Shown here: positions 24,269-63,571 of the stretch, piece after piece | Layout of the letters: every line of letters begins with the position of its first letter | How positions within the stretch are numbered: position 1 is the first letter of the stretch | NCBI RefSeq assembly: GCF_900128445.1 | Contig: NZ_LT671417.1 | Location: forward strand, 2,553,201 to 2,617,200 | From: Thermophilibacter provencensis | GTDB lineage: Bacteria > Actinomycetota > Coriobacteriia > Coriobacteriales > Atopobiaceae | Direction of reading: 5' to 3' | Length of the DNA stretch: 64,000 bases | Made by a program: the position numbers and the translations under genes | The notes under the pieces: model-generated | The model's input: the letters and a program-made list of their open reading frames with translations, nothing else | The model's database searches: none | What the model was told of the DNA's origin: nothing

Positions 24269-24331
24269 TGACAAACTCCCCCGGGACCTTTGTCAGGTTA
24301 TGACAAACTCCCCCGGGACCTTTGTCAGGTT
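24269..24331. repeat. Two tandem 31-bp REP-like palindromic repeats
   Basis: Two identical 31-base units (24269-24299 and 24301-24331) are separated by one base. Each has TGACAAA/TTTGTCA ends around a CCCGGG core, so each can fold. The second unit extends into the 3' end of the xanthine dehydrogenase gene and provides its TGA stop codon. Confidence 0.85.
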
Positions 24332-27090
24332 CGGGAGTAGTACGAGTGCCTGAGCGGCAGCTCGCACTGCAGCTCGCCGGTGAGCGCGCGATAGGCGTTC
24401 TGCACCGCGGGCGCCGTCGGGATCGTGGCGATCTCGCCGATGCCCTTGCCGCCGTACGCCACGTCCAGAAGCTCGTCCTTCTCGACGTAGATCGCGTGGA
24501 TGTCCGGGATGTCCGGCGCCCTGAAGAGGCCCAGCGTGCCAAACTTCACCTGCGGCACGCAGTCCTCGAGGTCAAAGCGCTCGGTCAGCGCGTAGCCCAT
24601 GCCCATGAGCACGCCTCCCTCGATCTGCCCCTGGATGGCGATCGGGTTCACCACGCGCCCGGAGTCGTGCGCGGCGTGGACCTCGGTCACGCGGCCGTCG
24701 TCGTCCAGGATCACCACGTGCGTGGCGTAGCCGTAGGCCACATGGCTCTTGGGGTTGGGCACGTCCGCTCCGAGCTTGTCGGTCTTCTCGAGGTACTCGT
24801 AGGAGAACTCGCGCCCCTCGAGCGCCGCCAGCGCGGCGACCGGGTCGCTCGCGTGGTAGCCCGCGCCCGGCCCCACGTAGGGCGTGCCGTCGGCGTACTC
24901 GACCACAAAGCCGTCACCGTGCGCGACCACGGGCTCCGTGCCGGTCTCCGTGCCCTCCTCCACCGCGAGCATGGCGTCGCGCAGCAAAAACGCCGCGCCG
25001 CGCACGGCCTCGCCGGTGATGAGCGTCTGACGCGAGCCGGAGGTGGTGCCGGAGTCGGGCGCATTCTCGGTGGAGCACTCGCCGTTGGCGATGTGCGACA
25101 GGGGCAGCCCCGTGGCCTCGGCCACGTCCTGCAGGAAGACCGTGTTGCAGCCCTGGCCGATGTCGGAGGTGGCGGAGTAGACCACCGCGCGGCCGTCCTC
25201 CACGCGGATCTTGCAGCGTCCCGCGTCGGGCAGGCCCACGCCCACGCCGGAGTTCTTCATCGCGCACGCAATGCCGGCGTGGCCGGGATGCGCCTCGTAG
25301 ACGTCCTTCACGGCCAGCAGCGTCTCCTTGAGCGCGGTGGAGCGGTCGGCGATCTGGCCGTTGGGCAGGACCTTGCCCGGCTCGATGGCGTTCCTGTACC
25401 GGATCTCCCACGGCGAGATGCCCACCTCGTCGGCGAGAAGGTCGATGAGGCTCTCGAGCGCAAACTCGCTCTGGCACACGCCGAAGCCGCGGAACGCGCC
25501 GGCGGGCGGGTTGTTGGTGTACCAGCCAAAGCCGCGGATGTCGGTGTTCTGGTAGCAGTACGGGCCCACGGAGTGCGTGCAGGCGCGCTCTAGGACCGGG
25601 CCGCACAGGCTCGCGTAGGCGCCGGTGTCGAAGTTGATCTCGCAGTCCAGGCCCACGAAGGTGCCGTCCTCGTCACAGCCGAGGGTGAAGGTGCCCTCCA
25701 TGTAGTGGCGCTTGGGGTGGAAGTTGATGGACTCCTGGCGCGTGAGGCGCACCTTGACCGGACGCCTCACGGCGAGAGCGGCGAGCGCGGCCAGGTGCTG
25801 CACGGAGACGTCCTCCTTGCCGCCGAAGCCGCCGCCCACGAGCATGGTCTCCACGACCACGCGCTCCGGCGTGGCGTCCCAGCCGAGCATGTGGGCGATC
25901 TCCTTGCGAGAGTCGTAGGCGCCCTGGTCGGACGAGCAGACCTTCACGCCATCCTTGTACGGGAAGGCCACGGCGCACTCCGGCTCGAGGAACGCGTGCT
26001 CGGTGAACGGCGTCCTGAAGGTGCGCGTCACCTTGTGCGCGGCGCCCGCGAGCGCCGCGGCCGCGTCGCCGCGGACCACGTGGCGCTGCTGGCAGATGTT
26101 GTTCTCGGGCGTGACCCAATTTCCAAACGCGAGGTAGGGCTTGTGGAGCACGGGGGCACCCTCCGCGCGGGCCTCCTCGATCGAGCGCACGGGCTCGAGC
26201 ACCTCGTACTCCACCTTCACGGCCTTCTTGGCCTTCTCGAGCGTGGCGGCGTCCTCGGCCACCACGAGCGCGATGGCGTCGCCCACGCAGTGCGTGACGT
26301 CGCCCTCGGCGATCATGACGTCCCAGTCGTAGAGCAGGTGCCCGACGGCGTTCACGGGCACGTCGGCGGCGGTGAGCACGGCGAGGACGCCCGGCATGGC
26401 GCGGGCCTTCTCGGCGTCGATCTTGACCACGCGGGCGCGCGGGTGCTTGGAGCGCACGGCGCTGGCGTAGGTCAGGTCGGGGAAGTCGCGCTCGTCGATG
26501 TCGTCGGGGTACTTGCCGTAGCCGAGCACCTTGCGGCGCACGTCCACGCGGAAGGCGCGCTTGCCCACGCCGTAGTCGTCGCCGCGCTCGAGCTCCGGGT
26601 CGATGCTCTTCTCGACCCGCAGGATCGCGGCGGCGAGCAGGATGCCCTCGATGATCTTCTTGTAGCCGGTGCAGCGGCAGACGTTACCGCGGATGGCCAC
26701 CTTGACCTGGTCCTCGGTGGGGTCGGGCACCTTGTGGACGAGGGCCGCGCCCGCCATGACCATGCCGGGGATGCAGAAGCCGCACTGCACGGCTCCCACC
26801 GCGCCGAAGGCGTAGACGAAGGCCTCCTGCTCCTCGTGCGGCAGGCCCTCCACGGTCACGATGTCGCGGCCGTTGGCCAGGCGCGTGGTGAGGACGCACG
26901 CCTTGGTGGCGCGGTCGTCCACGAGCACGGTGCAGGTGCCGCAGGCGCCCTCGGAGCAGCCGTCCTTGACGGAGGTGAGCCTGAGGTCGTCGCGCAGGTA
27001 GCGCAGGAGCGGCTTGTCGCACGTGACGACCTGCTCCTCGCCGTTGACGGTGAAGCGGTACTCGGCGGGTGCCTTGACGTTGGCTGCCAT
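24325..27090 (-). CDS. Selenium-dependent xanthine dehydrogenase (fused Fe-S and molybdenum subunits)
   Basis: This 921-residue enzyme hydroxylates xanthine or a related purine using a molybdenum cofactor. Residues 1-155 form the two [2Fe-2S] domains: Cys45, 50, 53 and 65, then Cys103, 106, 138 and 140. The rest is the molybdopterin-binding part, with VGGGFGGKED near the middle and the catalytic-Glu motif GGKGIGEIA near the end. The fusion, together with ssnA and ygfK upstream, matches the selenium-dependent molybdenum hydroxylases, in which labile selenium sits on the metal; no selenocysteine codon is needed or seen. The ATG at 27090 follows GGAGG. The last codons lie inside a REP-like repeat, so the C-terminal residues (YSRT) are repeat-derived. 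Confidence 0.9.
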   Translation of the reverse strand: MAANVKAPAEYRFTVNGEEQVVTCDKPLLRYLRDDLRLTSVKDGCSEGACGTCTVLVDDRATKACVLTTRLANGRDIVTVEGLPHEEQEAFVYAFGAVGAVQCGFCIPGMVMAGAALVHKVPDPTEDQVKVAIRGNVCRCTGYKKIIEGILLAAAILRVEKSIDPELERGDDYGVGKRAFRVDVRRKVLGYGKYPDDIDERDFPDLTYASAVRSKHPRARVVKIDAEKARAMPGVLAVLTAADVPVNAVGHLLYDWDVMIAEGDVTHCVGDAIALVVAEDAATLEKAKKAVKVEYEVLEPVRSIEEARAEGAPVLHKPYLAFGNWVTPENNICQQRHVVRGDAAAALAGAAHKVTRTFRTPFTEHAFLEPECAVAFPYKDGVKVCSSDQGAYDSRKEIAHMLGWDATPERVVVETMLVGGGFGGKEDVSVQHLAALAALAVRRPVKVRLTRQESINFHPKRHYMEGTFTLGCDEDGTFVGLDCEINFDTGAYASLCGPVLERACTHSVGPYCYQNTDIRGFGWYTNNPPAGAFRGFGVCQSEFALESLIDLLADEVGISPWEIRYRNAIEPGKVLPNGQIADRSTALKETLLAVKDVYEAHPGHAGIACAMKNSGVGVGLPDAGRCKIRVEDGRAVVYSATSDIGQGCNTVFLQDVAEATGLPLSHIANGECSTENAPDSGTTSGSRQTLITGEAVRGAAFLLRDAMLAVEEGTETGTEPVVAHGDGFVVEYADGTPYVGPGAGYHASDPVAALAALEGREFSYEYLEKTDKLGADVPNPKSHVAYGYATHVVILDDDGRVTEVHAAHDSGRVVNPIAIQGQIEGGVLMGMGYALTERFDLEDCVPQVKFGTLGLFRAPDIPDIHAIYVEKDELLDVAYGGKGIGEIATIPTAPAVQNAYRALTGELQCELPLRHSYYSRT

Positions 27091-27101
27091 GGTCTCCTCC
27101 C

Positions 27102-27314
27102 CTACTGGGCCGGGGCGTAGATGCCCAGCGTGTCGTGGATGACGCCCTTGCGGCACTTGGTGGCGCACATGCCGCACGCGATGCACAGCGCGTAGTCGAT
27201 GCGCGCCTGCTTGTCCTCCACGCGCATGGCGCCCGCGGGGCACGCGCGCTCGCAGAGGCGGCAGCCTATGCAGCCCGTCTCGGCCACCCAGATGCGCCTG
27301 GTCTCGTCGTCCAT
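27102..27314 (-). CDS. Two-cluster 4Fe-4S ferredoxin of the xanthine dehydrogenase operon
   Basis: This 70-residue protein has two complete CxxCxxCxxxC motifs: CIGCRLCERAC and CIACGMCATKC, each followed by the usual small residues. It should carry electrons between the dehydrogenase and YgfK or another partner. The ATG at 27314 has a good binding site (GAGGGGAG). It ends 11 bases before the dehydrogenase start, so the two are co-transcribed. The REP-like inverted pair at 27328-27415 lies in front of it. Confidence 0.88.
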   Translation of the reverse strand: MDDETRRIWVAETGCIGCRLCERACPAGAMRVEDKQARIDYALCIACGMCATKCRKGVIHDTLGIYAPAQ

Positions 27315-27327
27315 GGTGTACTCCCCT

Positions 27328-27415
27328 CGTGGCGTGCAAAAGGGACAGTCACTTTTGCACGGATTCCCGAAAAGCGCGTGGCGTGCAAAAGTGACTGTCC
27401 CTTTTGCACGCCACG
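27328..27415. repeat. Inverted pair of REP-like palindromes (33-bp arms)
   Basis: Arms 27328-27360 and 27383-27415 are perfect inverted copies of 33 bases with a 22-base spacer. Each arm is itself a near-palindrome bounded by GTGCAAAAG/CTTTTGCAC around GGACAGTCA. The pair lies between ygfK and the ferredoxin gene, inside the operon. Related single units occur at 48762-48788 and 61123-61149. Confidence 0.85.
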
Positions 27416-27423
27416 CGGATGCG

Positions 27424-30417
27424 TTACCTGGCCAGCAGGTAGCCGTAGTCGTCGCGGACGGCGCGGATGGTGAGGCGCACGTCCTCGGGCAGGCCGCACG
27501 CGGCGTCGTCCACGTCGTAGACGCCCTCGCCGGAGGCCAGGCGCACGCGGAAGCCACCCTCGACGGGCAGGAAGCCGCGGTTCTCGCTCGCGTCCATGTC
27601 CTCGGCGCTCCAGAAGAGCGTGAGCTTGTCCTTATACGGGCGGCCGCTCCACGGGCAGAAGACGGCGCAGTTGCCGCACTCGTTGCACATGCCGTCCACG
27701 TGGACGACCTGCTCCTGCGCGAGGCCCGGCACCTTGATCGCCACGTTGGCGCGGTTGGGGCAGACGTCGCAGCAGACCTCGCAGACGGTGGCGCAGCCCA
27801 GGCAGCGGCTCGTGGCGCAGCCGGCCACGTCGAGGCAGATGTCGCCCTTGCGTCCCATGATGGCGTCGTGCTTGTCGGCGCGGACGTTCTTCTCGGCGTA
27901 CTTGTTGAAGTCGACGCCGGCCAGGTCGCGGGCAACGGCCTGCGCGTCGGCGATGGCCTCCACGAAGGTGGCCGGCCCGCGGCGGCAGTCGCCGGCAGCC
28001 CAGACGTGGTCCACGCCGGTGGCGGTGCCAGCCGGGCGGCCGCGACGGTCGACCTCCACGCCCGCGCCCTCGTAGAGCCCGCGCTCGATCTGCTCGCCCA
28101 CGGCGCAGATCACGGCCGTGGCGGGGACCTGCACGGTCTCGCCCGTGCCCTCCGGGCGGCGGCGACCGGACTCGTCCGGCGCGCCAAGGCGCATGACCTC
28201 GCAGGCCAGCTTGCCGTCGGCCACGCCGATCGGGGCGAGAAGCTCGCAGAGCTCAACGCCCTCCTCGAGGGCGAGCTGCAGCTCCTCCTCGTCCGCCGGC
28301 ATCTCCTTCTTGGTGCGACGGTAGACGATGCGCACGTTCTTCACGCCCTCGGCGCGCTTGGCCACGCGCGCGGCGTCCATGGCGGTGTTGCCGGCGCCCA
28401 CGATCACGACGTCGGTGCCGAGCTCCATGGGCTCGCCGGCCTTGGCGGCCTCGAGGAACTCCAGGACGTCGATCTCCTCGCCGGCCTTGAGGCCCACCTT
28501 GCCCGGCGCCCACGCGCCCGTGGCAACCACGACGTCCGTGAAGCCCTCGTCGAAGAGCTCGGCCACGCTCGTGACCTCGCGCCCCATCTGGACCTGCGCG
28601 CCAAAGGCGAGGCAGAGGGCCACGTCCTTGTCGATGTCGTCGTGGGAGATGCGGAACTCGGGGATGACGTGGCGCGCCACGCCGCCGAGCTTGTCCGTGC
28701 GCTCGATGATGGTGACCTTGGTGCCGGCGCGCGTGAGGAAGAACGCGGTGGCGAGGCCGGCCGGTCCGCCGCCGATCACGGCGACGTTCTTGTCGGCCGC
28801 GGAGGCCAGCCGGGCCGGGCCGGCGGCACGGAGCTTCTTCACGACCTCGTCGAAGCCGCCGCGGGCCGCCTCGAGCTTGGACTCGCGGATGCGCGCGCCC
28901 TCGGGCTCGTAGAAGCTGCGCTCGCACTTGGCGCCGCAGGGGTGCGGGCAGAGGTTGCCGGTGATGTGCGGCAGGGCGTTGCGCTCGACGACGACCTGGA
29001 GCGCCTCGGCGAGCTTCCCCTCGTCCACGCGGGAGAGGTAGGCCGGGATGTCCTGCTGGATGGGGCAGCCGGTACGGCAAGGCGCCGTGAAGCAGCTCAT
29101 GAGCGGCAGCTCGGCGTCGACCTTGTGCGGCTTGGCCGGCTTGATGGGCTTCTGGTAGTCCTTGCCGGAGGACACGCGGGCGGCGAGCTCGGTCACGGCG
29201 TCAACGTCCACGTCCTCGGAGCGCGGCGCGCCGGCGAGAAGACCGGCGATCTGGAAGAAGCGCTCGTAACCGCCGGGCTTGAGGACGTTGGTGGCCATGG
29301 TAATCGGCCAGATGCCGGCCGCATAAAGCTCGCGGATGTTGCGCGCGTCGGCACCTCCCGAGTAGGAGATGCGCAGCTTGCCGTCAAACTGGCGGGCGAT
29401 GCGGCGCGCCAGCTCGATCGTGAGCGGGAAGAGCGAGCGGCCGGACATGTACATCTCCTCGCTCGGCAGCTCGCCGCGGGTCACGTCCACCGGGAAGGTG
29501 TTGGTGAGCTTGACGCCAAACGCGAGGCCCTTCTCGGCGCAGAGCTTGATGAGGCGGTCGAACATGGGCACGGCGTCGGCCCACTGCAGGTCCTCGCGGA
29601 AGTGCGTGTCATCGAAGACGATGTAGTCAAAGCCGAGCTCGTTCAGGCGCTCGCGGGCAAAGTCGTAGCCCAGGAGCGTGGGGTTGCACTTGATGTAGGT
29701 GTTCACGCCCTTCTCGGTGATGAGGTAGGTGGCGATGCGCTCGATCTCGTCAGGCGGGCAGCCGTGGAGCGTGGACTCGGTGACGGAGTTGGAGACCTGC
29801 GGGGAGACGGCGTTGACGAAGTCGGCGTCGACGTTCTGGAAGCGGTCGAGGTTGGCGAGGGCCCAGTCGCGGCACTCGGCCCAGACGTCGGTGCCGGACG
29901 CGTCCTTCATGCCCTCGATGTACGTGTCGACCTTGGGGCTCTGGATGCCCTCGAGGCTGTAGCCCACGGACATGTTGAAGACAAAGCCGTCCGGGTCGCC
30001 GAGGCCGTACTCGCGGGCGATGAGCTTGCAGGCCCACCAGGCCTTGACGTACTCCGCGAAGGCCTGCGGGACGGTGAGCTCGGTGGACCACTCGCAGTTG
30101 TAGCACTCGTCCTCGGCCACGATGCAGGGCTTGTTCACGCAGGCGGAGAGCTCCTCGCCGTCCATGATCTGGACGGTCTTGAGCTCGAAGAAGCGCGAGC
30201 CCGCCACGTAGGAGGCCACGATATTCTGCGCAAGCTGGGTGTTGGGGCCGGCGGCCGGGCCAAAGGGGGTCTCGATCTTCTCGGCAAAGATCGGCTCGGC
30301 GCCGCCCTCGTGGACGTAGGCCTTGCGCACCCCGAAGATGCTGGCCTGCGTGTCGTGCTCGGTCAGGATCCAGTCCATGACCTGCGCGAACGGGATCGGC
30401 CTCATGACGTCGCTCAT
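27424..30417 (-). CDS. ygfK: YgfK, putative oxidoreductase of selenium-dependent purine metabolism
   Basis: This 997-residue protein, close to the E. coli length, has three parts. Residues 1-430 form a dihydroorotate/dihydropyrimidine dehydrogenase-like barrel (TESTLHGCPPDEIERIA near 225). The middle is a GltD/DPD-like flavin and NAD(P)H domain with Cys-rich entry (CRTGCPIQQDI), VIGGGPAGLA and VIVGAGNTAMDAARV. The C-terminus has more Fe-S motifs (CLGCATVCEVCCDVCP and CNECGNCAVFCPW). The protein is annotated elsewhere as a putative selenate reductase subunit, but its constant link with SsnA and the hydroxylase suggests electron transfer for purine hydroxylation. The ATG at 30417 follows GGAGAGGAG; a longer frame upstream is rejected. 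Confidence 0.92.
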   Translation of the reverse strand: MSDVMRPIPFAQVMDWILTEHDTQASIFGVRKAYVHEGGAEPIFAEKIETPFGPAAGPNTQLAQNIVASYVAGSRFFELKTVQIMDGEELSACVNKPCIVAEDECYNCEWSTELTVPQAFAEYVKAWWACKLIAREYGLGDPDGFVFNMSVGYSLEGIQSPKVDTYIEGMKDASGTDVWAECRDWALANLDRFQNVDADFVNAVSPQVSNSVTESTLHGCPPDEIERIATYLITEKGVNTYIKCNPTLLGYDFARERLNELGFDYIVFDDTHFREDLQWADAVPMFDRLIKLCAEKGLAFGVKLTNTFPVDVTRGELPSEEMYMSGRSLFPLTIELARRIARQFDGKLRISYSGGADARNIRELYAAGIWPITMATNVLKPGGYERFFQIAGLLAGAPRSEDVDVDAVTELAARVSSGKDYQKPIKPAKPHKVDAELPLMSCFTAPCRTGCPIQQDIPAYLSRVDEGKLAEALQVVVERNALPHITGNLCPHPCGAKCERSFYEPEGARIRESKLEAARGGFDEVVKKLRAAGPARLASAADKNVAVIGGGPAGLATAFFLTRAGTKVTIIERTDKLGGVARHVIPEFRISHDDIDKDVALCLAFGAQVQMGREVTSVAELFDEGFTDVVVATGAWAPGKVGLKAGEEIDVLEFLEAAKAGEPMELGTDVVIVGAGNTAMDAARVAKRAEGVKNVRIVYRRTKKEMPADEEELQLALEEGVELCELLAPIGVADGKLACEVMRLGAPDESGRRRPEGTGETVQVPATAVICAVGEQIERGLYEGAGVEVDRRGRPAGTATGVDHVWAAGDCRRGPATFVEAIADAQAVARDLAGVDFNKYAEKNVRADKHDAIMGRKGDICLDVAGCATSRCLGCATVCEVCCDVCPNRANVAIKVPGLAQEQVVHVDGMCNECGNCAVFCPWSGRPYKDKLTLFWSAEDMDASENRGFLPVEGGFRVRLASGEGVYDVDDAACGLPEDVRLTIRAVRDDYGYLLAR

Positions 30418-30546
30418 TGTTGCTCCTCTCCTGCGGGAGGTTTCCTCCCACGCCCGCCGGCGAGACCGCGCGCCGGCGAAAGGGTGACGTTCGGCCCCGC
30501 GGAGGCCGAGTGGGGCCGGGCGCCCCTCGCGCCCGGCCAACGGTTC

Positions 30547-31890
30547 CTAGTACGTACGCTCGTTGAGCGTGCCCCAGAGCTTCTTTGACTGCTCGAGGGT
30601 CCAGGCGTTGATGCGCTCCTCGTCAAAGGCCACGAACTCGCGGTCGCGGTAGAGCACCTTGCCGTTGACGATGGTGGTGCGGCAGTTCTTGCCCATCATG
30701 CCGAAGAGCATGTGGCCGTCGATGTTCTCGTCCGAGAAGGGCGTGAAGACCGGGTAGTCCATCACGATGACGTCGGCCGCGGCGCCGGGCGCCAGAACGC
30801 CGATCCTGCGCCCAAAGTACTCGCTCGCCATGGCGGGGTTGTTCTGGAAGAGCATCGTCATGGCCTCGACCCAGCCCACGTTGGGCATGGCCGCGTTGTG
30901 GCGCTGGATGATGAGGAAGACCTTGAGGCTCTCGAGCATGTCGTGCGTGTAGGCGTCGGTGCCCATGTGCACCGGGATGCCGCGGCGGAAGAACTCCAGC
31001 ACCGGCGCACAGCCTACGGCGTTACCCATGTTGGACTCGGGGTTGTTGACGATGTGGGTGCCGGTCTCCTTGATGATGTCCATCTCGGCGGGCGTGACGT
31101 GGATGCAGTGGCCGAGCATCGTGCGCGGACCCAGGAGGTCGTGCTGCAGCAGGCGCTCGATCGGCGAGATGCCGCCGCGCTTCTGCCGGCTGTCCCAGAC
31201 GTCGTTCATGCCCTCGCAGACGTGGATGTGGAAGCCGGTGAGGCCATTGTTGGCCTCGGCCATCTTGTCCATCGTCTCGTCGGAGAGCGTGAAGGTGGCG
31301 TGCCCGCCAAACATCGCGGCGATCATGCCGGAATCCTGCTGGGAGGCCCACTGCGCGAACTCGGCGTTCTCGGCAATGGCCTGGTCGCGCTTCTCGGGGC
31401 CGCGGCGGTCGGACGTCTCATAGCAGAGGCACGCGCGGATGCCCGTCTCCTCGCAGACGTCCTTGATCGCAAAGAGGGAGCCCGGGATCTCGCAGAAGCT
31501 CGCGTGGTGGTCGAAGATCGTGGTCACGCCGTCGCGGATGGAGTCGAGCACCGTGGCGTACGCCGAGGCGCGCGTGCCGTCGAGCGTGAGGTTGTCGTCG
31601 ATCTTCCACCACTGCTGCTCGAGGTTCTCGAGGAAGTTGGTGGGGTTGCAGCCCTTGATGGACAGGCCGCGGGCCAGGCCCGAGTAGATGTGGGTGTGGC
31701 AGTTCACGAGGCCCGGCATGATGACGCCGCCGTGGGCGTCCACGTACTCGGCGCCAGCGTACTTCTCGGCGAGCTCGGCCTCCGGGCCCACCTCCACGAT
31801 CTTCTCGCCGTCGATGGCAACGGCTCCGTGCTCGAGGTAGGGGGTGTCTGCGTCGCGCGTGATGACGCGACCGTTTGCTACGAGCAGCAT
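30547..31890 (-). CDS. ssnA: SsnA, amidohydrolase of selenium-dependent purine metabolism
   Basis: This 447-residue amidohydrolase has the metal site HxH in VNCHTHIYSG (about 64-68), further ligands in GFHIHVCEG and LGHCIHVT, and an Asp in MGTDAYTHD. Members of this group deaminate or hydrolyse purine-like rings; SsnA itself is known mainly through its constant association with selenium-dependent molybdenum hydroxylases. It lies between the NCS2 permease and ygfK. The start follows a purine-rich leader (AGGAGAAGAAG). Confidence 0.92.
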   Translation of the reverse strand: MLLVANGRVITRDADTPYLEHGAVAIDGEKIVEVGPEAELAEKYAGAEYVDAHGGVIMPGLVNCHTHIYSGLARGLSIKGCNPTNFLENLEQQWWKIDDNLTLDGTRASAYATVLDSIRDGVTTIFDHHASFCEIPGSLFAIKDVCEETGIRACLCYETSDRRGPEKRDQAIAENAEFAQWASQQDSGMIAAMFGGHATFTLSDETMDKMAEANNGLTGFHIHVCEGMNDVWDSRQKRGGISPIERLLQHDLLGPRTMLGHCIHVTPAEMDIIKETGTHIVNNPESNMGNAVGCAPVLEFFRRGIPVHMGTDAYTHDMLESLKVFLIIQRHNAAMPNVGWVEAMTMLFQNNPAMASEYFGRRIGVLAPGAAADVIVMDYPVFTPFSDENIDGHMLFGMMGKNCRTTIVNGKVLYRDREFVAFDEERINAWTLEQSKKLWGTLNERTY

Positions 31891-48761: not shown

Positions 48762-48788
48762 GTGCAAAAGTGCCTGTCCCCTTTGCAC
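48762..48788. repeat. REP-like palindrome between sufU and iscR
   Basis: GTGCAAAAG and CTTTGCAC ends surround TGCCTGTCCC. It is closely related to the units at 27328-27415 and 61123-61149. It ends directly in front of the iscR ribosome binding site, so folding could affect iscR translation or message stability. Confidence 0.8.
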
Positions 48789-60413: not shown

Positions 60414-61091
60414 CTACAGGTCGGCCATCGTCTTGCCGGCGCCAACGAGACCCTCGAAGTCGGCGGTGAAGGCGTCCACCGCAGCGTCGATCGCGGCGTT
60501 CTTGACCAGGCCCTCGATCACGGAGGAGGCGGCCGTCACGGCGCCGACGCCGTAGCGGGCGAGCTCGAGGATCTGCTGGGAGTTCTTGAAGCTCGCGGCG
60601 AGCACCTCGCAGGGGAGGTCGTTGGCGCGGAAGATGTCGTGGATCTCCATGGCAACGCCCACGCCGTCATAGCCCATGTTGTCGATGCGGTTGATGTAGG
60701 GCGCGGCGTAGGAGGCGCCTGCCTTGGCGGCGAGGAAGGCCTGCATCGGGGTGTAGATGGCCGTGGCGGTGGTGCGGATTCCCTCGGCGGCGAGCATGCG
60801 GATGGCCTTGAAGCCCTCCGGGACGCTCGGGACCTTGGGGAAGGTGTGGGCGCCGAGCTCGGCCACGATGCGCCTGCCGTCGGCGACCATCCCATCGGCA
60901 TCGCGGGCCACGACCTGCGCGTGGAGCTCCATCTCGGGCCCGATGATGTCTCGGATCTCGTGCAGGACCTCGAAGGGCGCGCGGCCGGAGGCGGCGAGGA
61001 TCGACGGGTTGGTGGTCACGCCGTCAACGGGGTAGTACTCCACCAGGCGCTTGATGGCATTGACGTCGGCGTCGTCGATGATGAGCTTCAT
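60414..61091 (-). CDS. fsa: Fructose-6-phosphate aldolase-like transaldolase family enzyme
   Basis: The 225-residue protein is a short transaldolase of the FSA type: DGVTTNPSILA near 23-34, the Schiff-base Lys86 in HTFPKVPSV and TATAIYTPMQAFLAAKAGA near 108-126. FSA enzymes cleave or form bonds next to hydroxyacetone. It lies 59 bases after the glycyl-radical enzyme gene, as in the E. coli ybiW/fsaA arrangement. There the aldolase is thought to split 1-deoxyfructose-6-phosphate. The ribosome binding site is AAAGGAACC. Confidence 0.9.
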   Translation of the reverse strand: MKLIIDDADVNAIKRLVEYYPVDGVTTNPSILAASGRAPFEVLHEIRDIIGPEMELHAQVVARDADGMVADGRRIVAELGAHTFPKVPSVPEGFKAIRMLAAEGIRTTATAIYTPMQAFLAAKAGASYAAPYINRIDNMGYDGVGVAMEIHDIFRANDLPCEVLAASFKNSQQILELARYGVGAVTAASSVIEGLVKNAAIDAAVDAFTADFEGLVGAGKTMADL

Positions 61092-61122
61092 GACTGGTTC
61101 CTTTCGCTTGGCGTGTGGAAGC

Positions 61123-61149
61123 GTGCAAAAGTGCCTGTCCCTTTTGCAC
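61123..61149. repeat. REP-like palindrome between the glycyl-radical enzyme and aldolase genes
   Basis: GTGCAAAAG and CTTTTGCAC ends surround TGCCTGTCC, the same family as at 27328-27415 and 48762-48788. It lies directly after the stop of the glycyl-radical enzyme gene. Confidence 0.82.
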
Positions 61150-61150
61150 G

Positions 61151-63571
61151 CTACAGGGTCTGCTCGGTGCGGGCGATGATGTCGTCCTGGGTGGCGCGGG
61201 AGAGCACGTTGAAGAACGCGGAGTAGCCGGCCACGCGGACGATCAGGTCCTTGTGCCTCTCGGGGTGGGCCTGCGCGTCGAGCAGGGTCTCGCGGCTCAC
61301 GATGTTGTACTGCACGTGATAGCCGTGCAGGCGGTCGAAAAACGCTGAGATGAGCATCTCGAGCTTCTGCTTGTTGCGTTCGGAGGCGAGCATCGTGGGA
61401 GCCATCTTCTGGTTGAGCAGCACGCCGCCCGTGATCTTCTCCGTGGGAAGCTTCGAGACGGACTTGAAGACGGCGGTGGGACCGTGGGTGTCGGCGTTGT
61501 GCGCGGGGCTGCAGCCCTCGGCAAGCGGCTCGTGGGCGTGGCGGCCGTCAGGCGTGGCCATGGTCCCCATTCCCTGCCCCACGTTGGCGCTGATCGAGGA
61601 GGTGCCGGCGTAGCGGATGCCGCCGATGGGGCCGCGGCCATGGCGCGTGTTGGGATACTTGGCAATCTCGTCGATGTAGGACTGGTAGGCGTCCACTACG
61701 AGTTGGTCCACGAAGTCGTCATCGTTGCCGTACTTGGGGGCGTCGTTCACGAGCATCTGGCGGATCCGCTCGCCCTTCTCGCCCGCGAAGTCGCTCTCCA
61801 GCGCGTCGGCGAGCTCGGCCGGCGTGATGCGCCTCTCGTCAAAGACGAGCTTCTTGATGGCCGCGAGGGAGTCGGCCATGTTGGCGATGCCCACCTGGAG
61901 GCCTGAGATGAAGTCGTAGACCGCGCCGCCCTCCTTGATGGTCTTGCCGCGGCCGATGCAGTCGTCCGTGAGCGCGGAGCACAGGACGTCCGGCACGTCG
62001 CGCTCGGAGGCCTTGTCGATGGCGTTCTCCACGATGACGCTCGCGCGGGTGATCTCTCGGATGGTCTTGTCCCAGGCCTCCATGAGCTCGTCGTAGCTCT
62101 TCATGTCGCGGAAGCTGCCGTAGCCCTTGGCAAAGCGCTTGCCGGTGGTCACGTCCACGCCGTCGTTCATCACGCAGAGCAGCATGCGCGGGAAGTTCAC
62201 GTAGCTCATTCCCGTGCAGCGGTAGCCCCACTTGCCCGGGACGGCCGTCTCAACGCAGCCGATGGCGGAGTAGTTGTAGGCGTCCTCCTCTGCCACGCCC
62301 CACTTGATGAAGGACGGGATGATGACCTCGTCGTTGTTGAGCGCGGGCATGCCAAAGCCGAGCTTCATGACCTCGATGCACTCGTCGTAGAACTCCTTGT
62401 TGAGCCCGGCGTGGTAGCGCACCGTGAGGTTGGGCTGGGTGAGGCGGGTCTGCGCCACGGACTGCAGCACGAGGAAGGAGAGGTCGTTGACCGCGTCGCG
62501 CTTGTCCGTGGTCTGGCCGCCGATGGTGACGTTCTGGTACATGGGGCTGCCGGCCGAGGAGAACGTGTGCGCCTGGCTGCGCACCTTGTTGACGGAGAGC
62601 GTCTTGATCCAAAGGCAGGTGAGGAGCTCGAGCGCCTCGTCACGCGTGATGGCGCCAGAGGCGATGTCCGCCTGGTAGTACGGGAACATGTACTGGTCGA
62701 AGCGGCCGTAGGAAAGGCTGTGGCCGTTGGACTCGATCTGCAGGATGAGCTGGATGAACCAGACGGACTGCACGGCCTCGCGGAAGGAGCGGGCGGGCTC
62801 GTAGGGCACGCGCTCGCAGGTCTCGGCAATCCGGCGAAGCTCGGCCGCGCGCGCCTCGTCCTTCTCGGCCTCCGCCATCTCGCGGGCGAGCGCGGCGTAG
62901 CGCCCGGCGAAGCGGCGCACCGCGGCGATCACCACGAGGACGGCCTTGTAGAAGACGTTCTTGTCGATGGCGTCGGGGTCGGTGAGGTCGAGCGCGGCGC
63001 GGCACGCGCGGACGCGCTCCTCATAGCCGGCAAGGCCGACGGAGAGCACGCGCTCGTAGTTCACTGCCAGGTGGGCGTCGCCGGCGTTGAGCTTGCCCTC
63101 CATGCCGAAGAGGCCCGTCTCCATGTAGACCTGGACCTCCTCGGGCAAAAGCGCCTCGCCGCGGGCGCGCAGGTTGTTGTTGTCCCAGAAGGGCGCGAGG
63201 TCGCGGAGCTGCTGCTTGGTCTCCTCCGTGATGTAGAAGACGTCGCCGTCGCGCTTCTCGAAGGTGTCGAGCTCGTTCAGAACGAACTCCATCGTGTACT
63301 CGGGGAAGATCGGGGCGTTCCTGTTCTTGGTGGCCTGGTTGCCTACGATGAGGGTCTTGTCCTCGATGTAGATCGTCATGTTGTCGAGAATCTTCTCGAG
63401 CATGAGGGCGCGCTTCATGACGTTGGGCTGGTTCTGGTGCTCGCGGTAGGCCTGCGTCGCCAGCACCGCGCGCTCGGCGTCGATGTAGGGCCTCTCGTCA
63501 AGCATCTCCTCGCGAAACGCCCGCATGCGGGGCGTGAGCTCTCCGAAGTGGCTCTCGTTTGCCTGGGACAT
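61151..63571 (-). CDS. Glycyl-radical enzyme of the pyruvate formate-lyase family (YbiW/PflD-like)
   Basis: The 806-residue enzyme has the catalytic Cys439 in IGCVETAVPGK and the glycyl radical Gly782 in RVAGYS near the C-terminus. A Glu (441) follows the Cys, as in dehydratase/lyase members rather than in true pyruvate formate-lyase. The nearby FSA-type aldolase and the divergent activase match the YbiW/PflD gene set, which recent work links to 1,5-anhydroglucitol-6-phosphate breakdown. Glycerol or other diol dehydratase activity is the alternative. The start follows GAAGGGGAG. The enzyme is oxygen sensitive, so the host lives anaerobically at least in part. Confidence 0.9.
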   Translation of the reverse strand: MSQANESHFGELTPRMRAFREEMLDERPYIDAERAVLATQAYREHQNQPNVMKRALMLEKILDNMTIYIEDKTLIVGNQATKNRNAPIFPEYTMEFVLNELDTFEKRDGDVFYITEETKQQLRDLAPFWDNNNLRARGEALLPEEVQVYMETGLFGMEGKLNAGDAHLAVNYERVLSVGLAGYEERVRACRAALDLTDPDAIDKNVFYKAVLVVIAAVRRFAGRYAALAREMAEAEKDEARAAELRRIAETCERVPYEPARSFREAVQSVWFIQLILQIESNGHSLSYGRFDQYMFPYYQADIASGAITRDEALELLTCLWIKTLSVNKVRSQAHTFSSAGSPMYQNVTIGGQTTDKRDAVNDLSFLVLQSVAQTRLTQPNLTVRYHAGLNKEFYDECIEVMKLGFGMPALNNDEVIIPSFIKWGVAEEDAYNYSAIGCVETAVPGKWGYRCTGMSYVNFPRMLLCVMNDGVDVTTGKRFAKGYGSFRDMKSYDELMEAWDKTIREITRASVIVENAIDKASERDVPDVLCSALTDDCIGRGKTIKEGGAVYDFISGLQVGIANMADSLAAIKKLVFDERRITPAELADALESDFAGEKGERIRQMLVNDAPKYGNDDDFVDQLVVDAYQSYIDEIAKYPNTRHGRGPIGGIRYAGTSSISANVGQGMGTMATPDGRHAHEPLAEGCSPAHNADTHGPTAVFKSVSKLPTEKITGGVLLNQKMAPTMLASERNKQKLEMLISAFFDRLHGYHVQYNIVSRETLLDAQAHPERHKDLIVRVAGYSAFFNVLSRATQDDIIARTEQTL

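Follow-up and report, generated by a model that had tools for sequence, protein, structure and literature searches.

A REPIN-like repeat pair between ygfK and a ferredoxin-like gene of Thermophilibacter provencensis, and the apparent exchange of transposase-linked REPs at orthologous junctions of its genus

The inverted repeat between ygfK and a ferredoxin-like gene in the 64-kb stretch of Thermophilibacter provencensis DNA analysed here (the window) is probably a REPIN-like element, made of two inverted 27-nt REP units of a family of about 150 units spread by a REP-associated tyrosine transposase (RAYT), whose relatives have been replaced in place at orthologous junctions of sister species and have in some cases been kept as mRNA hairpins. 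A further proposal, which we hold tentatively and at somewhat below even chances, is that the positions of the hairpins are inherited and their sequences are not: new REPs would be written into the cores of old REPs or beside older hairpins as the specificity of RAYT and REP diverges, with the map of sites kept genus-wide, some sites selected as mRNA elements, and the letters renewed along with the transposase.

The two arms at 27328–27415 (27328–27360 and 27383–27415) are complementary over 33 nt without mismatch around a 22-nt spacer, as a sequence-only reading of this DNA had described them; at 97% complementarity they extend to 37 nt (27325–27361 and 27382–27418). Each arm contains a 27-nt imperfect palindrome, the REP unit (27334–27360 and 27383–27409), and the two units are reverse complements of each other, which agrees with the earlier view of a REP-type inverted pair. 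The pair takes up most of the 109 nt separating ygfK, with its stop codon at 27424–27426, from the ferredoxin-like gene, with its start codon at 27312–27314. The identity of ygfK is supported by TIGR03315 (1284 bits, above cut-off), and for the neighbouring gene, encoding a 70-aa 4Fe-4S protein, none of the models shown exceeded its cut-off. A search of the window with the pattern GTGCAAAAGNGACNGTCNCTTTTGCAC (up to 3 mismatches) gave 4 matches, namely the focal pair and the two single units reported before at 48762–48788 and 61123–61149, and 0 matches in 100 shuffles of the window. The features are as follows:

27325..27418, no strand: whole inverted REP pair, REPIN-like, with 37-nt arms at 97%, lying between ygfK and the ferredoxin-like gene
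27334..27360, plus strand: REP unit 1, GTCAC subfamily, first half of the pair (genome C3:2580542 F)
27383..27409, minus strand: REP unit 2, reverse complement of unit 1 (genome C3:2580584 R)
48762..48788, minus strand: single REP unit, GGCAC subfamily, between sufU and the Rrf2-family regulator gene
61113..61121, minus strand: possible remnant of an older REP arm adjoining the 61123 unit (loose pattern match, unit C3:2614324)
61123..61149, minus strand: single REP unit, GGCAC subfamily, 1 base past the stop codon of the glycyl-radical enzyme gene

Around the focal pair (24325–31890), models for a selenium-dependent xanthine dehydrogenase (TIGR03311), YgfK (TIGR03315) and SsnA (PRK07203, TIGR03314) matched above their cut-offs, and we therefore regard this region as a selenium-linked purine cluster. 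Beside the 48762 unit, SufU (TIGR01994) and the Rrf2-family regulator (TIGR00738) scored above cut-off; the IscR model gave the regulator 106 of 207.6 bits, so its naming as iscR is uncertain. The 61123 unit follows a TAG and one further base, and lies between the genes for a PFL2-type glycyl-radical enzyme (TIGR01774, above cut-off) and a fructose-6-phosphate-aldolase-like protein (under cut-off). At all three sites the flanking genes are co-directional. The earlier statement that the family marks internal operon junctions suits these three sites; across the genome, the 96 elements placed between genes by a simple gene caller fall into 61 co-directional, 22 convergent and 13 divergent spacers. 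A preference for co-directional spacers was considered and dropped, the sole background being 32 spacers of the window, with a gene caller covering 74%.

The family is real, as had been supposed from the letters alone, and it reaches far beyond the window, contrary to the absence of members elsewhere that would have spoken against that reading: scanning the whole genome with up to 2 mismatches gave 73+80 matches, the reversed control pattern gave 0, and a 27-base pattern gave 68+77, counts in which a near-perfect palindrome may be entered on both strands. From about 0.47 Mb of sequence around these matches, 152 units were resolved (up to 3 mismatches; a few are weak) into 44 inverted pairs and 64 singles, the latter including the one same-orientation pair. 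Close neighbours occurred 44 times in one inverted order and never in the other, so that inverted doublets of a short palindrome are over-represented and, by the simple gene caller, mostly intergenic, as in REPINs. Pairs join GTCAC with GTCAC (22), GGCAC with GGCAC (21) or T with C (1). The 27-nt arms are identical in 31 of the 44; the mean difference is 0.43 bases within a pair (44 pairs) and 1.52 when the arms are taken from separate pairs of one type (451 comparisons). Beyond the units, 14 of the 44 pairs match at no fewer than 5 of the 7 nt compared, as do 2.7% of the comparisons.

Single units tend to lie close behind genes. Among the 35 in co-directional spacers, 29 have the same end facing the stop codon upstream (p 1e-4 in a two-sided binomial test; simple gene caller). 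The distance to that codon is at most 3 nt in 18 (3.0 expected under uniform placement in the same gap; in 5 of the 18 it is negative, the predicted gene overlapping the unit) and at most 15 nt in 26 (10.7 expected), and the 61123 unit belongs to this near-stop class. Sixteen singles start right after the stop triplet (13 TAG, 3 TGA). TAG as a fixed insertion target was rejected, as pairs occur without it and TGA also precedes units. Stalling of ribosomes by REPs that lie no more than 15 nt from a stop codon has been reported in Escherichia coli (PMC12306157). Separately, a TTCAAAAG stem variant occurs twice in the same orientation, at C3:168826 and C3:171408 (2.6 kb apart), with identical 3' flanks.

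The transposase was overlooked in the sequence-only reading, which had rightly recognised the repeats as REP-type. Among four Y1_Tnp matches in the genome, the gene for P0001 (252 aa, C3:216411–217166) has one family unit directly on either side, the arrangement of a RAYT gene with its REPINs. P0001 scores above the Y1_Tnp cut-off, reaches 75 of the 80 bits required by NCBIfam REP_Tyr_transpos, and matches the solved TnpArep 4er8 at E 1.3e-4; its helix-turn-helix region gave matches below the Pfam cut-offs. HUH and Y---NP residues are common to the four paralogues (HxH, Y124 and N128-P129 invariant). The remaining three genes have their own flanking inverted repeats, of types GGGGACGGAG, GGTGACAGGG and AATTGGGGACAG. 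The frame of the GGTGACAGGG-flanked paralogue (C3:81630–82378) looks broken, since its P0001 match consists of two overlapping pieces; a repeat similar to the GGTGACAGGG type is also seen at the glycyl-radical junction of G029. This arrangement suggests that P0001, an IS200-like HUH/Y1 transposase, is likely to be the enzyme that spreads the family.

Matches to P0001, paralogues included, were found in 28 of 31 congeneric genomes, and 30 RAYT loci were compared (the best of each of the 28 genomes and two more). In 18 genomes the RAYT gene occupies the same chromosomal place, as judged from short flanking sequences, and there the stem type of the flanking REPs tracks the identity of the RAYT: seven genomes whose best-matching piece is 87–100% identical to P0001 have GTGCAAA(A/G)G stems (among these seven, the RAYT genes of G012, G004 and G017 are matched in two pieces), two with 66% identity have TTGACAAG-like stems, one with 58% has GGTCAAAAG, five with 56–57% have GATTC/GATCCAAAAG and three with 54–58% have GATACGAAG/GTTACGAAG-like stems. 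Copies of the family number 145, 137, 101, 98, 73, 35 and 20 in the seven genomes with a GTGC-type RAYT, and 0–18 in the other 24. RAYT and flanking REPs have diverged jointly at this place within the genus. Three genomes (G002, G007 and G008) have the focal unit type at the glycyl-radical junction and no GTGC-type RAYT was seen in them, a P0001 match being absent from G002 altogether. Window positions 60750–61550 are 98% identical in the same three genomes and 86–92% identical in other full-length matches; this stretch, REP included, may have been transferred between species. Outside the phylum, 39 of 80 loci with RAYT relatives were inspected, and those of Dethiobacter, Syntrophomonadaceae and Novosphingobium have flank repeats with GGGGACRG or GGGACAG cores and other stems.

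When all 108 elements were mapped to sequence stretches from three relatives, only 12 junctions were obtained, and for this reason four sites were searched through the whole genus. At all four orthologous junctions the REPs of sister species differ in their stems. The earlier reading, which was right about the three co-directional sites, had missed that other hairpin sequences stand there in related species. The focal junction was recovered in 27 of 31 genomes: REPs of the GGGAC type are present in 16, with stems of about seven types, and among these 16 G011 has a GC-rich hairpin as well; 11 have a hairpin without a REP, which is the GC-rich hairpin alone in 6 and another hairpin in 5 more distant genomes. 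G029, whose RAYT is 98% identical, belongs to those without a REP here. In G011, CCCCTCGTCG flanks the REP adjoining the GC-rich hairpin, perhaps as a target duplication, perhaps by chance. The junction at C3:2522433 (26/31) holds a REP of about seven types in 15 species (degenerate in G002), other hairpins in 6, and none or a weak one in 5; in 4 of the 26 only 27 nt lie between the anchors. At the SUF junction (30/31), 14 species have REPs of about six types, 5 share hairpins of one further family, whose GGGGACGTG core lies between A/T-rich arms, 4 have other hairpins and 7 are near-empty, with stop and start codons 2–4 bp apart. The glycyl-radical junction was extracted from 15 of 31 genomes (G005 and G025, with partial matches, are outside this set), and all 15 have a REP within about 12 bases of the stop codon, of at least seven types.

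Moreover, the REP at a junction resembles the REP flanking the RAYT of its own genome, with 24.7, 23.0 and 20.0 of 27 bases shared at the focal, C3:2522433 and SUF junctions against 19.4, 18.6 and 16.7 with those of other genomes. Permutations reached the observed match in 0, 0.02% and 0.1% of 5000 (14 genomes per site), values that are not independent, kinship being uncorrected. The automated counts of species with the core (18, 21 and 20) are too high owing to a loose pattern and became 16, 15 and 14 by eye; G012 and G008 were counted at C3:2522433 although they have no REP there. At the focal site G021 and G028 are exceptions to this match; at C3:2522433 the exception is G004, whose REP is of another type, and the SUF site has seven, G029, G014, G010, G022, G016, G017 and G001.

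A few copies look nested. Units C3:1374596 and C3:134768 have apparent older arms on either side, a GTGGAAAAG-type arm adjoins the GTGCAAAAG unit C3:2084820, and in G017 a GTGC-type arm comes after a GATTC-type unit. Arm-like sequence was found by a loose pattern beside the 64 singles more often than in control stretches (5' side 9 versus 2, 3' side 12 versus 1); the 19 flagged singles include several weak ones, such as 566216, 1703460, 168826 and 171408. Such copies suit, without proving, a process in which a newly arriving REP enters the core of an older one. REPs of new types stand at junctions where sister species carry other REPs or other hairpins.

At the focal site the element, lying between co-directional genes, would form a very stable hairpin in the mRNA: the 121-nt transcript folds into a single long hairpin at -77.9 kcal/mol (z -10.9). 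A known RNA family at 26900–27900 was rejected, all 16 Rfam matches up to E 1 being below their gathering scores; 15 of them are microRNA models, matches that a long perfect hairpin would be expected to give. The junction folds more stably than its shuffles in 27/27 species (z -2.0 to -10.7, 100 shuffles each; weakest G007 with -2.0 and G020 with -2.1), the stretch of distant genomes being picked by rule and lengths limited to 230 nt. Since the gap is structured in every species examined, selection probably keeps a hairpin here, and the case for one being kept is strongest at this junction, since an unrelated hairpin stands in the species that lack the REP. The hairpin is likely to have a role in the RNA, between the ygfK message and that of the ferredoxin-like and xanthine-dehydrogenase genes which follow; most likely it would act as a post-transcriptional separator, either protecting the 3' end or as a barrier to decay or ribosomes.

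That the host needs a hairpin at these sites and takes any at hand, with REPs as one source, is about as credible as our tentative proposal of inherited positions, and likewise falls short of an even chance. It would explain why the focal junction is structured in all species, 11 of them without a REP. Against it, hairpins are absent in 5/26 and 7/30 species at two other junctions, from which we conclude that they are not generally required, and the copy number of the family tracks the RAYT type rather than gene content; the SUF and C3:2522433 junctions are weaker cases for a kept hairpin because several species have none. Slightly less plausible is that REPs of different RAYTs were inserted independently into a few permissive or targeted junctions that had been empty, with no replacement. 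The near-empty alleles at SUF and C3:2522433 and the clustering of singles at stop codons (18/35 within 3 nt) would be expected then, but the older arms beside or around newer units, including those of G017, and the REP near the stop codon at 15/15 glycyl-radical junctions examined argue against it. Slow change in place, in which stems drift by paired substitutions with neither insertion nor replacement, is already unlikely: an inner CAAAAG-like part is common to the stems, and arms are closer within a pair than between pairs of one type (0.43 versus 1.52 mismatches), but clearly different REP types, GTGC and AATTGGGG, occupy the same SUF gap, in opposite orientations too, and the AATTGGGG REP there resembles repeats adjoining another Y1 gene. 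Finally, an intrinsic terminator between the operon halves, the sense in which the earlier suggestion of a stop to polymerase was examined, is very improbable despite so stable a hairpin between two genes, as no U-tract was found after it, it extends into the Shine-Dalgarno region of the ferredoxin-like gene, and a terminator scan of 26800–27800 gave 0 sites. The mechanism proposed in the earlier reading thus has partial support.

The repeat family and its transposase have close counterparts in described systems, here compared with the portions of each account at hand. As in TIRYT/TIRtron repeats (Di Nocera 2013, PMC3733652), a tyrosine transposase is flanked on both sides by inverted repeats with a GGGGWSAS-like core, some of them self-complementary and present as genome copies and dimers. 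The core GGGGACAG, which fits that motif, occurs in some members of the family and beside the RAYT genes of sister species, and AGGGACAG, found in the RAYT flanks of the host and in the focal pair, is one base off. The text of that paper contains none of Olsenella, Atopobium, Collinsella, Eggerthella or 'Actinobacteria', and exchange at orthologous sites was not met in the portion consulted. The REPINs of Pseudomonas fluorescens (Bertels and Rainey 2011, PMC3116915) are likewise intergenic inverted doublets forming hairpins, spread by a linked RAYT and showing paired changes within doublets; here tag, spacing and host differ, and the arms are nearly the same, with a similarity that often continues outward. 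REPs that differ between syntenic RAYTs have already been described in Pseudomonas and Stenotrophomonas (Nunvar 2013, PMC3686654), whose RAYT 'orthogroups' also combine one chromosomal place with species-specific flanking REPs; as far as the sections used go, the difference is that exchange is traced here also at four junctions apart from the RAYT gene. P0001 shares with TnpAY1 subclass 2.1 (Quentin 2018, PMC6006769) the Y---NP signature, GGGGWSAS-type flanks and a possible C-terminal helix-turn-helix-like region, the matches to which are below cut-off, and from these we infer that it may belong there; that survey, in the part used, found no REP-like sequence near the genes, whereas the flanks here are multi-copy hairpins. 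Neither of two other REP classes fits: GT[AG]G at the 5' foot of the hairpin, which defines GTAG-tagged REPs, is lacking in pairs, and GTAG at some singles is due to the upstream stop codon; CGTC-tagged REPs have no linked transposase, but one is linked here, and the listed units have no constant CGTC end. Among open-licence papers, no account of REP exchange at orthologous sites was recognised, and no reports were found for Olsenella with REP or Coriobacteri with RAYT.

The repeats of a GGGGWSAS-type transposase thus behave here as ordinary multi-copy REPs. Within one genus, the same junctions can be seen with different REPs, with other hairpins or with almost nothing, together with a record of how the transposase changed. 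Such a comparison separates the case in which a place needs a hairpin from that in which a sequence copies itself, and makes both testable, which bears on why bacteria keep REP populations for so long and on whether single copies serve the host.
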